Shown here in pieces: positions 23,530 through 34,654 of a stretch of DNA of 37,479 bases. Position 1 is the stretch's first letter; every line of letters begins with the position of its first letter. The notes under the pieces are model-generated. The model made no database searches. It saw only the letters and a list, made by a program, of their open reading frames with translations, and was not told where the DNA came from. A program made the position numbers and the translations under genes. Source of the stretch: an uncultured Fidelibacterota bacterium. GTDB taxonomy: Bacteria; Fidelibacterota; Marinisomatia; Marinisomatales; Marinisomataceae. Location of the stretch: the NCBI GenBank assembly GCA_902575395.1, contig CACGRA010000006.1:1-37479 (forward strand), read 5' to 3'.

Positions 23530-25263
23530 GTGAGAAGAAAAACTATCAATGTTAGCGTCGGAGATGTGATAATTGGTAGCGATTACCCTATTGTAACTCA
23601 ATCAATGACAACCGCTTCAACGTTAGATACAGAAGCTAGTGTCCAAGAAGCTATAAAAATTATTGATGCAGGCGGACAAATAGTACGATTTACTGCTCCA
23701 AATATTAAAGAAGCAGAAAACCTACAGAATATTAAAGATTCTCTAAGAAATAAGGGGTATACAAACCCTCTAGTTGCCGATATACATTTTACTCCCAATG
23801 CTGCAATCACTGCTGCAGAAATTGTTGAAAAAGTGAGAATTAATCCTGGAAATTATGTTGATAGAAAGAAGTTTGAAATAAAAGAGTATGATGATAAAAC
23901 TTACAATGATGAACTGCTTAAGATTGAAGATCGTTTTATTCCATTATTAGATGTTTGCAAAAAACATAATACTGCTATAAGAATAGGAACAAATCATGGC
24001 TCCTTGTCAGACAGAATAATGAATCGATTTGGAGATACTCCTCTTGGAATGGTTGAATCTGCTTTAGAATTTTTAAGAATTTGCAATAAAAATGATTTTG
24101 ACCAAGTTGTTTTATCAATGAAATCAAGCAATCCGTTAGTGATGGTACATGCTTATCGATTATTAGTCAAAAAAATGGATGAAGAAAACATGCATTTTCC
24201 ACTTCATCTTGGAGTAACAGAGGCAGGAGATGGGTTGGACGGTAGAATAAAGTCTTCCTTAGGGATTGGTTCGCTATTAAATGACGGTATTGGTGATACA
24301 ATTCGAGTGTCTCTTACAGAAGATCCAGAATTTGAAATACCTGCTGCGAAAAAAATTATTGATAAAACAAGAATATTAAATCCAATCAATAAAGACGACC
24401 ACAGGTTATCAGAATATCATAAAAGATCTACTTCAGCAGTGCTTAATATTGGTGGAGACAATGTTCCAGTCGTTTTATCTAGCTCTAATGTGTTGTTTGA
24501 AGGGAATGGACCTGATTATTTTTATAATGAAAAAGAATTAATAAATAATAAGAATGAAAGATTCCCTTATTTTTATTCAATTAAAGAATATCGTCAATCA
24601 GATAATAAATCTGATATAATAAATTTTGTATCTCTCAATAAAGAGACTATTACTAACTCGATTATGAGTTCTATGCCTAAAAATGTTGTATTTGTATTTG
24701 ATTTTCATGACAACGAAACTGATTTTAGAGGTATATTTAATTTTTTTGAAAAACAAGGCATTACTAACCCTGTTTTATTTAAAAAATCTTACAAAGAAGA
24801 AGATTTCGAGAAACTATCTATTGATGCATCCATAGATTTTGGTACCTTGTTGTTAGAGGGAATGGGGAATGGTCTTTGGTTAGATTCTGATCACCATCAT
24901 GAAAGAATCAATGAATTGAGCTTTTCTATTCTTCAGAATACACGCACAAGAATCTTCAAAACAGATTACATATCATGTCCATCTTGTGGAAGAACAAAAT
25001 TTAATCTTCAAGAAACTACAGCATTAGTTAAAGAGAAAACAAGTCATCTAAAAGGTTTAAAGATAGCCGTAATGGGTTGTATCGTCAATGGCCCTGGAGA
25101 GATGGCAGATGCTGATTATGGGTATGTTGGTTCAGGAAAAGATGTTATTTCTCTTTATAAAGGAAAAGATCTAGTTAAAAAAAATATATCAAGCAAAGAT
25201 GCGGTTGACGAACTAATTAACCTAATTAAAGCGAACAATGATTGGGTCGAGCCTTTAATTTAA
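23530..25263 (+). CDS. ispG: 4-hydroxy-3-methylbut-2-enyl diphosphate synthase IspG (large-insert form)
   Basis: GTG start; SDYPIVTQSMTTA, TIM barrel, inserted domain, then SCPSCGRTKFNLQ and MGCIVNGPGEMADADYGYVG [4Fe-4S] domain. Confidence 0.95.
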   Translation: MRRKTINVSVGDVIIGSDYPIVTQSMTTASTLDTEASVQEAIKIIDAGGQIVRFTAPNIKEAENLQNIKDSLRNKGYTNPLVADIHFTPNAAITAAEIVEKVRINPGNYVDRKKFEIKEYDDKTYNDELLKIEDRFIPLLDVCKKHNTAIRIGTNHGSLSDRIMNRFGDTPLGMVESALEFLRICNKNDFDQVVLSMKSSNPLVMVHAYRLLVKKMDEENMHFPLHLGVTEAGDGLDGRIKSSLGIGSLLNDGIGDTIRVSLTEDPEFEIPAAKKIIDKTRILNPINKDDHRLSEYHKRSTSAVLNIGGDNVPVVLSSSNVLFEGNGPDYFYNEKELINNKNERFPYFYSIKEYRQSDNKSDIINFVSLNKETITNSIMSSMPKNVVFVFDFHDNETDFRGIFNFFEKQGITNPVLFKKSYKEEDFEKLSIDASIDFGTLLLEGMGNGLWLDSDHHHERINELSFSILQNTRTRIFKTDYISCPSCGRTKFNLQETTALVKEKTSHLKGLKIAVMGCIVNGPGEMADADYGYVGSGKDVISLYKGKDLVKKNISSKDAVDELINLIKANNDWVEPLI

Positions 25264-30124: not shown

Positions 30125-30704
30125 TATATACAAAAGAATAGTTATAGTATTTTTACTGCTATCAATTTCATTAGGACAAGGGAAAAACCATAACCTTAAT
30201 TTCCTTTTTGCAAATAATGCTTATGGTCTTGCATATGAGTATCAAAAATTTGTAAAAAATGATTTTTCTATTGGAGCTGATATTCGATTCTATGATATCA
30301 GAGAAGATGAATACCCTGTGTATGATCCATTTTTTAATCAATATAGTGTTTCTGGAGAGAAGAGCATCCTAATGTTTCCTATGTATTTGAAATTGACTTA
30401 CTATCCTTTTCAAGGAAAGATAGCAAACAACTTCCAACCATTCTTAATGTTATCATTTGGACCATTTTTATCAGTTGATGGAGATGAAGATGCTGGAAGT
30501 TTTTCAGATAAATGGTCTGGAGCACCTACTCAAATTAATTTTGGAGGTTCAATTGGTTTTGGCGTTAATCTAAAAACAGATCAAGCATCAGGCTTTTCTT
30601 TTGGGATTGGCTATGACCATTTACAAGTAGATGAACCAATACATGATAAAGAAGATTTTGGTGGTGCATTTCTCTATTTACAATACAGATTAGGCCGTGA
30701 GTAA
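30117..30704 (+). CDS. Predicted outer-membrane beta-barrel protein
   Basis: Signal peptide ...ISLGQ; alternating amphipathic strands; C-terminal GGAFLYLQYRLGRE. Confidence 0.65.
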   Translation: MNNIYKRIVIVFLLLSISLGQGKNHNLNFLFANNAYGLAYEYQKFVKNDFSIGADIRFYDIREDEYPVYDPFFNQYSVSGEKSILMFPMYLKLTYYPFQGKIANNFQPFLMLSFGPFLSVDGDEDAGSFSDKWSGAPTQINFGGSIGFGVNLKTDQASGFSFGIGYDHLQVDEPIHDKEDFGGAFLYLQYRLGRE

Positions 30705-31419
30705 TTTTTTCTTTATAAGTAAGAAAAATATTCAAAAGAATAATTTCCAATTTGACAGTGATGAATCTCATCACTTGATTAATGTGATGCGGTTGAAGAT
30801 AGGTGCAGAAATTTGTTTCACTGATGGAGAAGGCAATTCTTATATTGGATCAATTTCTTCATTTGATAATGATATAGTGTCAGGAAATATTCTTGATACC
30901 CATAACAATAAGAATGAATTGAATTACCATATTCATCTTGGTTTACCTGTTATAAAAAAATCTAGAATTAAGATTGCTATTGAAAAGTCTGTAGAATCTG
31001 GGGTAAAGCAGATTACACCACTATCCCTTGAAAGATCGCTTAGACAAAATATTTCTATAGAAAGATTAAATTCAATTTCAAAGTCTGCAGTTAAGCAATC
31101 TATGCGAAGTATTGTCCCTGTTATTAATCCTGTGTCTTCTTTATCAGATTGGTATGATCCAAATGCTCTTAATATTGCATGTATAATAGGCGCAGACAAA
31201 AGACTTAGTGGATTTAAAGATCAAATTTTAAAATCTGTTAATGATAAGAAAAAAATTTGCTTATTGATTGGTCCAGAAGGAGATTTTTCTAATAAAGAAA
31301 AAGAGTTTATTTATGATAATAAATTCATTAAAGTTAGCCTTGGTAATACTATTTTAAGAACTGAAACAGCAATTATATCTGTTTTATCAATTTTGAATGA
31401 ATTAATAGAGTATGAGTAA
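30697..31419 (+). CDS. rsmE: 16S rRNA m3U1498 methyltransferase RsmE
   Basis: HHLINVMRLKIGAEICFTDGEG...IKIAIEKSVESGVKQITPL...LLIGPEGDFSNKE...SLGNTILRTETA. Confidence 0.93.
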   Translation: MSNFFFISKKNIQKNNFQFDSDESHHLINVMRLKIGAEICFTDGEGNSYIGSISSFDNDIVSGNILDTHNNKNELNYHIHLGLPVIKKSRIKIAIEKSVESGVKQITPLSLERSLRQNISIERLNSISKSAVKQSMRSIVPVINPVSSLSDWYDPNALNIACIIGADKRLSGFKDQILKSVNDKKKICLLIGPEGDFSNKEKEFIYDNKFIKVSLGNTILRTETAIISVLSILNELIEYE

Positions 31420-31756
31420 AACAATCTTCGAAAAAATTATTGATAAAGAAATTCCTTCTGACATTATTTATGAAGATGATTTGTTAATCGCAATCAAAGA
31501 TATTAATCCAGTAGCTCCTGTACATTTACTTATTATTCCTAAGAAAGTTATTCCTACTTTAAACGATTTGTCAAAAGAAGACTCTATTATTGTTGGTAAG
31601 ATGGTTAGTCTCGCAAAGGATTTAGCAAAGAAACTTGATATTGATAAAACAGGTTATAGAACTGTTTTCAATTGCAATGATCATGGTGGACAAACTGTTT
31701 ATCATATACATCTCCACTTAATAGGTGGTAGAAAAATGAATTGGCCACCAGGATAG
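31412..31756 (+). CDS. HIT-family protein
   Basis: IFEKIIDKEIPSDIIYEDD...PVAPVHLLIIPK...GGQTVYHIHLHLIGGRKMNWPPG. Confidence 0.94.
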   Translation: MSKTIFEKIIDKEIPSDIIYEDDLLIAIKDINPVAPVHLLIIPKKVIPTLNDLSKEDSIIVGKMVSLAKDLAKKLDIDKTGYRTVFNCNDHGGQTVYHIHLHLIGGRKMNWPPG

Positions 31757-31759
31757 AAT

Positions 31760-33889
31760 ATGCATATTTCAAAAATAGAAGTATTTGGTTTTAAATCTTT
31801 CGCAAAAAAACAAACTGTTGTTTTTAATAGTGGCATTACTGGTATTGTTGGACCGAACGGTTGCGGAAAAACTAATATTGTTGATGCAATTCGTTGGGTT
31901 TTAGGAGAACAAAGAGTTTCAAGATTGAGAGGATCTAAAATGGAAGATGTTATTTTCAATGGTGCATCTAATATTAAACCTCTTGGATTTTGTGAAGTTT
32001 ATTTGACTGTTCAAAATGATAAGGGCATCTTACCTCTTGAATATACAGAAGTTGAAATTGGCAGGAAGCTGTATCGAAGTGGAGAGAGCGAATATTTTAT
32101 TAATAGAAATTCATGTAGACTGAAAGATATATATAACCTTTTTGTAGATACCGGCATGAGCTCAGATGCTTACTCTGTTATAGAGTTAAATATGATTGAG
32201 CAGATTCTTTCTAATAAAGACAATAATAGAATTGCCATGTTTGAAGAAGCTGCTGGTGTTAATAAATATAAATCACAGAGACGTTCAGCGTTGAAAAAAT
32301 TTGATTTGAATAGTAGAGATTTAGAAAGAATTGATGATATTATTCTTGAGATAGAAATGCATGTTAAGAGCCTTGAATTACAATTAAAAAGATTTAAAAG
32401 ACATGAAAAATTGAGTAAAAAATTGCAAGATTTAGAAATAGAATTTGCTCAAGCAAAAATAACTGACTTAAATAAACAAATTAAACCTTTACAATCTCTT
32501 CTTAATAAGAAGAATAAAGCTTTAAATAAAAATTCTTCAAAAAAGAAATTGGAAGACCTAGATCTTGCTGGAGCTAAAAAAGATTATTTAAAGAAAAAAG
32601 AAGAATTCAATAAAGCTCAACAGAAAGTTGATGATTTGACAGCAGAGCTATTAAGTAGAGTTGAACAAAAAACCGATGAATCTTCCAAAGGTATTAGCAT
32701 ATTAGAAGATGAATTGCAGAAGAAAATTGAGCAATTAAATAAATTTGATAAAGATTACATTAAAATAGTTTCAGATTGCAATGAATGTGGGGAGCCTCTC
32801 AAAATTATTTCTGAATGTAGCAATTGTGGGAAAGTTGAATTAGACAAAAATTACACTATAATTGAAACTGACCAAAAATATGATAAACTAAAAGAAAGCG
32901 TTAACGACTATAAAAACAAAATTAAGTCATACAATAAAGAAAAAGAATTTGATCTAACAAAGCTTGATAATTCAATCAAAGATATTCAGAAAAAAATTGA
33001 TACTGTAAAATCAGAAGTAAAAAGAAAAGAAAATGCTGCAAATGATGCATTTAAAAAAATGGAAACTATTCGCGCCAAGATAGATTCAGATAGATTCAGT
33101 CAACAGGATGTATTTAATGAGATTAAAAATGCAGAAATGAAGATTGCAGAACTCAATATTAGAAGTGAACAAATAGAAGAACAAATAAAAGAGAAGTTTG
33201 GCGAAGATATTAAAATGAAATCTATAAAGAAATATGACTTATCAGATTTGTTATATAATATAGAAAAAACAAAAAGAAGTATCGAGGCGATTGGTCCAAT
33301 TAATTGGGCAGTTGCTGATGAATATGACGAACAAAGCAGTAGGCTAAAATTATTACAATCTCAAAGAGAAGATCTTATCGAATCAGAAAAAAATCTTAGA
33401 GAAGCTATAGATAAAATTGATAATGTTGCGAAAAAACAGTTCTTAAAAACATTTGAGGAGATAAAGAGTAATTTTGAAGTCATGTTTGAAAGATTTTTTT
33501 CGGGAGGAAAAGGTACAGTTGATTTAAGTGATATTGATGATCCATTAAATTCTGAAATTATAATATCTGCTCAACCTCCAGGAAAAAAGAATAATTCATT
33601 AAGAATGCTTTCAGCTGGCGAAAAATCTTTAACAGCTATTGCATTGCTTTTTGCGATATATCAATATAAACCTAGTCCTTTTTGTATTTTAGATGAGGTT
33701 GATGCTCCTCTTGATGATATTAATATAAATAAGTTTACAAAAGTCATAAAAGATTACAGTAAGAATACTCAATTTATAATGGTAACTCATAATAAGTTAA
33801 CTATGGAATCAACTGATTGTATTTATGGTGTTACTTCAGAAAAAAAGGGTGTTTCTAAGGTTATTTCAATTGATTTTGATGAAAAATAA
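31760..33889 (+). CDS. SMC-family ATPase, short form (709 aa) with central CxxC-x9-CxxC module instead of a hinge
   Basis: Walker A GPNGCGKTNIVDAIRWVLGEQ, signature LSAGEKSLTAIALLFA, Walker B FCILDEVDAPLDD; C340-C343-C353-C356 at the protein midpoint. Confidence 0.9.
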   Translation: MHISKIEVFGFKSFAKKQTVVFNSGITGIVGPNGCGKTNIVDAIRWVLGEQRVSRLRGSKMEDVIFNGASNIKPLGFCEVYLTVQNDKGILPLEYTEVEIGRKLYRSGESEYFINRNSCRLKDIYNLFVDTGMSSDAYSVIELNMIEQILSNKDNNRIAMFEEAAGVNKYKSQRRSALKKFDLNSRDLERIDDIILEIEMHVKSLELQLKRFKRHEKLSKKLQDLEIEFAQAKITDLNKQIKPLQSLLNKKNKALNKNSSKKKLEDLDLAGAKKDYLKKKEEFNKAQQKVDDLTAELLSRVEQKTDESSKGISILEDELQKKIEQLNKFDKDYIKIVSDCNECGEPLKIISECSNCGKVELDKNYTIIETDQKYDKLKESVNDYKNKIKSYNKEKEFDLTKLDNSIKDIQKKIDTVKSEVKRKENAANDAFKKMETIRAKIDSDRFSQQDVFNEIKNAEMKIAELNIRSEQIEEQIKEKFGEDIKMKSIKKYDLSDLLYNIEKTKRSIEAIGPINWAVADEYDEQSSRLKLLQSQREDLIESEKNLREAIDKIDNVAKKQFLKTFEEIKSNFEVMFERFFSGGKGTVDLSDIDDPLNSEIIISAQPPGKKNNSLRMLSAGEKSLTAIALLFAIYQYKPSPFCILDEVDAPLDDININKFTKVIKDYSKNTQFIMVTHNKLTMESTDCIYGVTSEKKGVSKVISIDFDEK

Positions 33890-33970: not shown

Positions 33971-34654
33971 ATGGCGACAAAAATTAGATTTAAAAGAATA
34001 GGAAGAAGAAATAGACCTTTCTATAGATTAGTAGTTATTGATTCTCGAAAAAGAAGAGATGGTGCACCAATTGAACAATTAGGTTGGTATGATCCTATAA
34101 AAACCGATAAAGATTCTAATTTTAATTTTAATGAAGAAAGAATTATTCATTGGTTAAAAGAGGGAGCTCAAACTTCAGATCCAGTTAACAAATTAATGAA
34201 AAGATCAGGTCTTGCTTACAGATGGCATTTAATAAAGCAAGGTTTATCAGATAGTGAAATAGAAAAAGCTCTTCAAAAATGGAAAGAAGAAAGAGCTAAG
34301 ATTGTAGAAGATAGAAAAAAAGCAAGAATTGAAAGAAAAGCTAAAAGAAAAGAAGAAAAAGCTTCTAAAGAAGTTGTAGAGGAAGCTCCGGCAGAAGAAG
34401 CTCCAGCTGAGGAAGCACCTGCAGAAGAAGAAGCTCCAGTAGAAGAAGCGCCAACAGAAGAATTATCTACTGAAGAACCAGTAGAAGAATCACAAGAGGA
34501 AACACCAGCAGAGGAAACTCCAGCTGAAGACAATCAAGAAGAAGCTCCAGTAGAAGAAACTCCTACTGAAGAGCCAGCCGAAGAAGTATCAGAAGAAGAA
34601 TCGGCACCTGAAGAAGATTCAGCTGAAGAAGCTGAAGAGTCCTCCAAAGAATAA
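33971..34654 (+). CDS. rpsP: 30S ribosomal protein S16 with long acidic Ala/Glu/Pro-rich C-terminal extension
   Basis: IRFKRIGRRNRPFYRLVVIDSRKRRDGAPIEQLGWYDP; then EEAPAEEAPAEE-type tail. Confidence 0.96.
   Translation: MATKIRFKRIGRRNRPFYRLVVIDSRKRRDGAPIEQLGWYDPIKTDKDSNFNFNEERIIHWLKEGAQTSDPVNKLMKRSGLAYRWHLIKQGLSDSEIEKALQKWKEERAKIVEDRKKARIERKAKRKEEKASKEVVEEAPAEEAPAEEAPAEEEAPVEEAPTEELSTEEPVEESQEETPAEETPAEDNQEEAPVEETPTEEPAEEVSEEESAPEEDSAEEAEESSKE

Follow-up and report, generated by a model that had tools for sequence, protein, structure and literature searches.

Can a bacterial chromosomal SMC protein dispense with its hinge, and what then takes its place at the tip of the coiled coil? The question is raised by an open reading frame in a stretch of DNA of 37,479 nucleotides (the window), whose source genome comprises 753 kb and is 73% complete. 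The frame starts with ATG and encodes 709 residues, with an ATPase half at either end:

31760-33889, plus strand: smc, a hingeless short chromosomal SMC of 709 aa (TIGR02168 and PF02463, without PF06470)
31760-32254, plus strand: N-terminal ATPase half, residues about 1-165, with Walker A GPNGCGKTN (5xg3/3zgx match; boundary approximate)
33389-33889, plus strand: C-terminal ATPase half, with signature LSAGEKS and Walker B CILDEVDAPLDD (PDB match and motif conservation)

Judged by its sequence, this protein is a genuine chromosomal SMC of the bacterial kind that lacks one defining feature of SMC proteins, the hinge. The NCBIfam model TIGR02168 (SMC_prok_B) matches it in two stretches with 713.2 bits (cut-off 567), the closest PDB matches are the B. 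subtilis Smc heads (5xg3/3zgx, E about 1e-120), and conservation reaches 0.73-1.0 across the N-terminal ATPase half and 0.94-0.98 in the motifs of the C-terminal half. The original prediction that the heads are of the SMC type and not of the SbcC/Rad50 type is borne out by these scores, with the best Rad50 model reaching only 56.8 bits at a cut-off of 1000, and Rad50/SbcC membership is rejected. RecN membership is rejected as well (39.5 bits, cut-off 407.9). In the Pfam scan, PF02463 (SMC_N) spans residues 3-699 (E=1.3e-61) and PF06470 (SMC_hinge) gives no match at E values up to 1, the domain pattern that had been expected. The same scan recovers PF06470 at residues 520-632 of a full-length relative (E=1.7e-20) and is therefore able to detect a hinge.

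The short form is the only form found in the genus. Its members, for which as for all other lineages the genomes are MAGs or single-cell drafts, belong to Candidatus Marinimicrobia/Neomarinimicrobiota (SAR406) and include AG-426-E20, AG-899-G06 and AH-736-N04, names that suggest single-cell genomes. An smc match is present in 23 of 24 genus genomes and all 20 complete copies encode 687-709 residues. PF06470 was found in none of the 24 genomes, with 10 of 14 control genomes positive. Intact SMC frames in other families of the same order are mostly 1170-1200 aa long, and the shorter ones look like contig-edge fragments. The genus proteins thus have about 60% of the usual size. In an IQ-TREE phylogeny of the heads the genus proteins form one clade with 100/100 support. 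One genome, G001, carries smc in three frames (L029/L119/L120, G001:C2:2243-4311) with one break near the tip, as a result of sequencing error or decay. Two genes lie directly ahead of smc in the window:

30697-31419, plus strand: RsmE-like 16S rRNA methyltransferase (PF04452, E=9e-39)
31412-31756, plus strand: HIT-family protein, directly upstream of smc (PF01230, E=1e-27)

The order RsmE-HIT-smc is common to the genus and many full-length orthologues (about 1175 aa), indicating that the short gene is the ordinary chromosomal smc orthologue and not a paralogue. The immediate neighbors that could be identified include no nuclease. Downstream of smc, the bS16 gene (33971-34654) encodes a 227-aa protein whose C-terminus is extended by a long, acidic repeat rich in Ala, Glu and Pro (EEAPAEEAPAEEAP...). 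Elsewhere in the window, 23530-25263 encodes an IspG/GcpE-family protein of 577 aa with its GcpE match in two stretches.

The middle of the protein carries four cysteines, Cys340, 343, 353 and 356, arranged as CxxC-x9-CxxC (32777-32827). The tip sits at most about 7 residues from the midpoint, and the residue positions agree with the original prediction on this point. Among shuffled versions of the protein's own residues, 0.016% contain a CxxC..CxxC pair, and 0.4% have any CxxC that lies no more than 15 residues from the midpoint. An AlphaFold2 model built with 21 orthologues consists of the heads, two helices (168-255 and 269-338), a tip without helix from 339 to 369 and further helices from residue 370 onwards; the arrangement is helix-tip-helix, and a globular hinge is missing. 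The full protein has a mean pLDDT of 66.8, with the tip below 50. In a model of the neck and tip fragment, at a mean pLDDT of about 65, helices again flank a tip that contains short strand elements. The models are monomers of moderate confidence from shallow alignments with tip pLDDT values of about 40-67, and they do not distinguish an intrachain ribbon from an interchain hook. A Foldseek search of the apex model against the PDB returned nothing significant, the Rad50 hook 1l8d ranking 29th at E=5.5, and the Pfam zinc-hook model PF04423 does not match the protein. The description of a 709-residue SMC with half-length arms and no hinge thus agrees with both the Pfam scan and the AlphaFold2 model, and a hinge is detected neither in the protein by these two approaches nor in the genus genomes by the search with PF06470.

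Comparison of orthologues divides the region between the heads into arms, neck and an apex cassette:

32255-32773, plus strand: N-terminal arm of the coiled coil, some 174 residues long, about residues 166-338 (AlphaFold2 helices)
32624-32773, plus strand: N-side of the conserved neck, about residues 289-338, ...ESSKG..LE.ELQ.KI.QLN.FD.DYIKIVS (identity, no indels)
32774-32857, plus strand: apex cassette, residues 339-366, double-CxxC type DCNECGEPLKIISECSNCGKVELDKNYT (orthologue comparison)
32858-33388, plus strand: C-terminal coiled-coil arm, about residues 367-543 (AlphaFold2 helices from 370)
from 32858, plus strand: C-side of the neck, the first about 26 residues of the C-terminal arm, IETD.KYE.LK.SI.DYK.KI (identity)

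Neck sequence and arm length are conserved while the tip varies. Pairwise identity in the neck (289-336 and 373-384) is 0.72-0.86, with 0.82 for C-side residues 373-384, versus 0.49-0.63 in the adjoining N-terminal arm, and just 0.49-0.51 in tip residues 337-360. Orthologues at 55-95% identity show zero indels in arms and heads, all indels being confined to the tip and the C-terminus. In a profile alignment to full-length relatives, residues 1-297 are colinear without an indel and residues 406-707 align with full-length residues 872-1173, placing the losses between 297 and 406. With the heads set at about 331 residues and boundaries uncertain by about 10, the arms measure about 174-175 residues in all three cassette types described below, about 262 in a second hingeless lineage (EAC25) and about 340 in full-length relatives.

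The partners of a chromosomal SMC are retained. In the window's own genome the ScpA and ScpB genes adjoin trpS in the order trpS-scpA-scpB. ScpA is found in 21 of 24 genus genomes and ParB in 22 of 24, both in all eight of the high-quality ones. The search of the own genome for a second SMC found none, the sole other SMC_N match over the Pfam cut-off being an ABC exporter. We lean towards the view that the sole chromosomal SMC found in the genus is a working Smc-ScpAB condensin whose apex is joined by the neck and a mini-cap, based on the SMC heads, the synteny, the retention of ScpA, ScpB and ParB, the indel-free arms and the conserved neck. The ancestor of this genome-reduced Marinimicrobia genus would have lost the hinge by deletion, together with the outer half of both arms. 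The short SMC would act with ScpAB as a condensin loaded by ParB, and its chains would be joined at the apex, where the helical-hairpin neck would contact the neck of the partner and be capped by a cassette of 9-27 residues. In this species the cap would be a zinc module with four cysteines, most probably a ribbon formed within one chain that stabilizes the end of the hairpin. In relatives with a single CxxC the cap could serve as an interchain zinc hook of the Rad50 type, and relatives without cysteines would rely on the neck together with a polar loop, with no need for zinc.

The main rival, unlikely but to be taken seriously, is a condensin with an open apex, in which the tip does not dimerize and the chains are held together by heads that engage in an ATP-dependent manner and by a bridge of ScpA and ScpB. 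The cassette would then merely cap the hairpin and zinc, where present, would be an intrachain stabilizer. The poor conservation of the cap and its lack of cysteines in 9 of 22 species fit this alternative, and RecN-like proteins of the SMC superfamily function with short hairpins and without a hinge. Hingeless SMCs without CxxC have also been reported in marine Actinobacteria (PMC12153180). A mere end-cap, however, would need neither a neck that exceeds the adjoining arm in conservation nor an invariant arm length, and a separate lineage evolved a CxxC at the exact midpoint. Topological models of SMC action moreover require a closed apex. Neck conservation could also reflect contact with a partner protein or DNA, which would count against dimerization through the neck.

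The tips of 22 genus orthologues are readable and fall into three types. Type A, with two CxxC motifs (7 proteins), includes this window and the most divergent members, L027 and L028; type B (6) has a single CxxC, typically SECxECGKN; type C (9) is cysteine-free and reads SNxDVxKSLSxESRxxFKNKNY. The type A motifs KIVSDCNECG and KIISECSNCG look like a 13-residue tandem repeat of the single-CxxC unit. The four cysteines are invariant among the seven type A proteins, down to 45% identity in that region, so their anticipated conservation holds within this type and fails across the genus. With cysteines absent from the tip in 9 of 22 orthologues, zinc cannot be a general requirement. The original prediction that a zinc ribbon or hook replaced the hinge is therefore correct as to hinge loss and a short midpoint module, may apply to this species and to roughly half of the genus, and is not universal. 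The more general statement is that the hinge was replaced by a conserved neck and an exchangeable cap.

The three cassette states do not form clades on the tree of heads. At least seven state changes are needed over the whole IQ-TREE phylogeny, and AU tests reject monophyly of type C (p=5e-88) and of type B (p=1e-63). One protein, L012, resembles its type A neighbors L009-L011 except at residues 339-380, where it is closest to type C proteins; identity in residues 339-366 is 0.25 to the former and 0.64-0.77 to the latter. L012 thus appears to be a mosaic confined to the tip, with a MAG artefact not fully excluded, although its tip is only about 75% identical to any sampled type C protein and hence no simple chimeric join with a sampled genome. 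Together, the discordance between cassettes and tree and the L012 mosaic are signs of cap exchange between species by recombination. Caps would pass between species by homologous recombination and would be functionally interchangeable. We give a little under an even chance to the broader proposition that the condensin apex is an exchangeable allelic cassette (zinc ribbon, single-CxxC hook or cysteine-free, 9-27 residues), in which the hinge fold with its proposed gate and DNA-binding roles is dispensable for SMC function in nature and selection keeps neck sequence and arm length constant.

Alleles that differ in cysteine content (C+/C-) are known for ribosomal proteins. By analogy, zinc-binding and cysteine-free caps could be C+ and C- alleles selected by the zinc supply of the ocean. 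This idea is compatible with the condensin reading and would be an addition to it. We regard it as rather improbable: discrete cysteine and cysteine-free cassettes do occupy one site with signs of exchange by recombination, but the forms with one, two or no CxxC could just be neutral variation.

It is considerably less probable that the protein was repurposed as a DNA-repair ATPase, taking on a Rad50- or RecN-like role after loss of RecN and no longer serving as a condensin. RecN was not found over its cut-off in any of the 24 genus genomes (weak matches in G009, G010 and G001 fall on smc itself), so the short SMC may be the sole SMC/RecN-type ATPase there. Its outline is also Rad50-like, with the single-CxxC variants resembling Rad50 hooks. 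The heads, however, score far above the SMC_prok_B cut-off and far below those of the Rad50 and RecN models, ScpA, ScpB and ParB are retained, and the gene neighborhood is that of an ordinary smc. Rad50 complexes have neither kleisin nor KITE partners (PMC10586767). With only an ABC exporter as further SMC_N match over the cut-off in the own genome, the condensin job would be vacant if this SMC had been repurposed.

Although every source genome is a draft and smc is broken in G001, a pseudogene or an artefact such as a local deletion or misassembly, the latter two raised in the original prediction as what would refute it, is so improbable as to be rejected for practical purposes, given intact, strongly conserved frames in about 20 species, including the likely single-cell L041-L043 and L040, which lies on a 734-kb contig, a single clade at 100/100, 20 complete copies of 687-709 aa, the absence of a hinge match or full-length copy in 24 genomes, and the kept RsmE-HIT-smc order.

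Hinge loss is not confined to this genus within the phylum. EAC25 (L065) and its relative L129 encode an SMC of 867 aa whose midpoint, residue 428, carries one CxxC (CKYC or CKFC). With TIGR02168 the EAC25 protein reaches 711 bits; it has no hinge match, and EAC25 also encodes ScpA. The lineage forms its own 100/100 clade and is separated from the genus by well-supported branches of full-length SMCs. Two independent hinge losses in Marinimicrobia are likely but not proven, as a single clade of both hingeless lineages is nearly, though not formally, rejected (AU p=0.06). Among 59 EAC25 relatives, 13 (G132, G134, G135, G138-G140, G144, G145 and others) have no SMC match to the EAC25 query, through loss or incompleteness. 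A weak match in the EAC25-related bin G141 (L158, G141:C2:20000-23924) belongs to a long SMC of another kind, which runs off the contig at about 1000 aa; its middle looks hinge-like by eye and it is probably binning contamination.

The arm lengths of about 175, 262 and 340 residues provide natural data on a proposed periodicity. Burmann et al. give modes of 163 (minor), 238 and 341 residues for natural prokaryotic SMC arms, functional windows of 253-267 and 330-373 for B. subtilis Smc and a period of 91 aa (PMC5344682). The steps of about 87 and 78 residues seen here are compatible with a period of about 90, in a tiny sample. The genus arms fall below 253-267, the lower of the functional windows given there for B. 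subtilis.

The hinge is usually treated as a defining and functional part of SMC proteins, and the roles ascribed to it in SMC motors include dimerization, DNA binding and recently an obstacle gate (PMC12647877). In this one phylum it was lost at least once and probably twice, with ScpAB and ParB kept and three different mini-apices explored on an otherwise fixed frame. The hinge may thus not be needed for an essential condensin machine. Natural proteins that are close relatives and diverge mostly at the tip thus allow a direct test of what an SMC apex must do.

Several known families share parts of this architecture. Lamassu LmuB proteins are about 650 aa long and many of them, though not all, have a hook (PMC10586767), but LmuB is rejected here at 75.8 bits versus 713 for SMC, and the neighbors are housekeeping and not defence genes. 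The ASRP proteins (ClsN/Sph) are archaeal coiled-coil proteins related to SMC, most of which have a zinc-hook motif (PMC9389158). As a second-tier NCBIfam match, ASRP (NF045487) reaches 94.2 bits at a cut-off of 300 and membership is rejected; that family stands apart from SMC, whereas its score and synteny mark the 709-aa protein as an SMC orthologue. Rad50/SbcC shares the plan of a coiled-coil ABC ATPase with a CxxC tip, but heads, partners and neighborhood here are those of SMC. Smc-ScpAB (TIGR02168) has the same heads, head-proximal arms, synteny and ScpA, ScpB and ParB partners, and the genus differs from it by a short SMC without hinge, arms of about 175 instead of about 340 residues and a mini-cap at the apex.

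In the open-access literature we found neither a Marinimicrobia SMC reported to lack its hinge nor a natural true SMC with a zinc-type apex, and no report of apex cassette exchange or of zinc-dependent cap alleles. An experimental precedent for the condensin reading is the engineered B. subtilis Smc(Zh), in which the hinge was swapped for the P. furiosus Rad50 zinc hook and which supports normal growth (PMC5344682); the converse swap in Rad50 works as well (PMC6969161). Smc(Zh) likewise combines SMC heads and arms with a cysteine-type mini-dimerization module in place of the hinge and is functional in vivo. The genus SMC, in contrast, is natural, and its caps differ in sequence and are cysteine-free in many species. 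Natural hinge loss itself is not new, since a hingeless SMC clade without CxxC was described in marine Actinobacteria in 2025 (PMC12153180). Those proteins are also natural hingeless SMCs of abundant ocean bacteria and apparently the sole SMC in the cell. They belong to a different phylum and have no CxxC, whereas in the Marinimicrobia genus cysteine-type caps alternate with cysteine-free ones.
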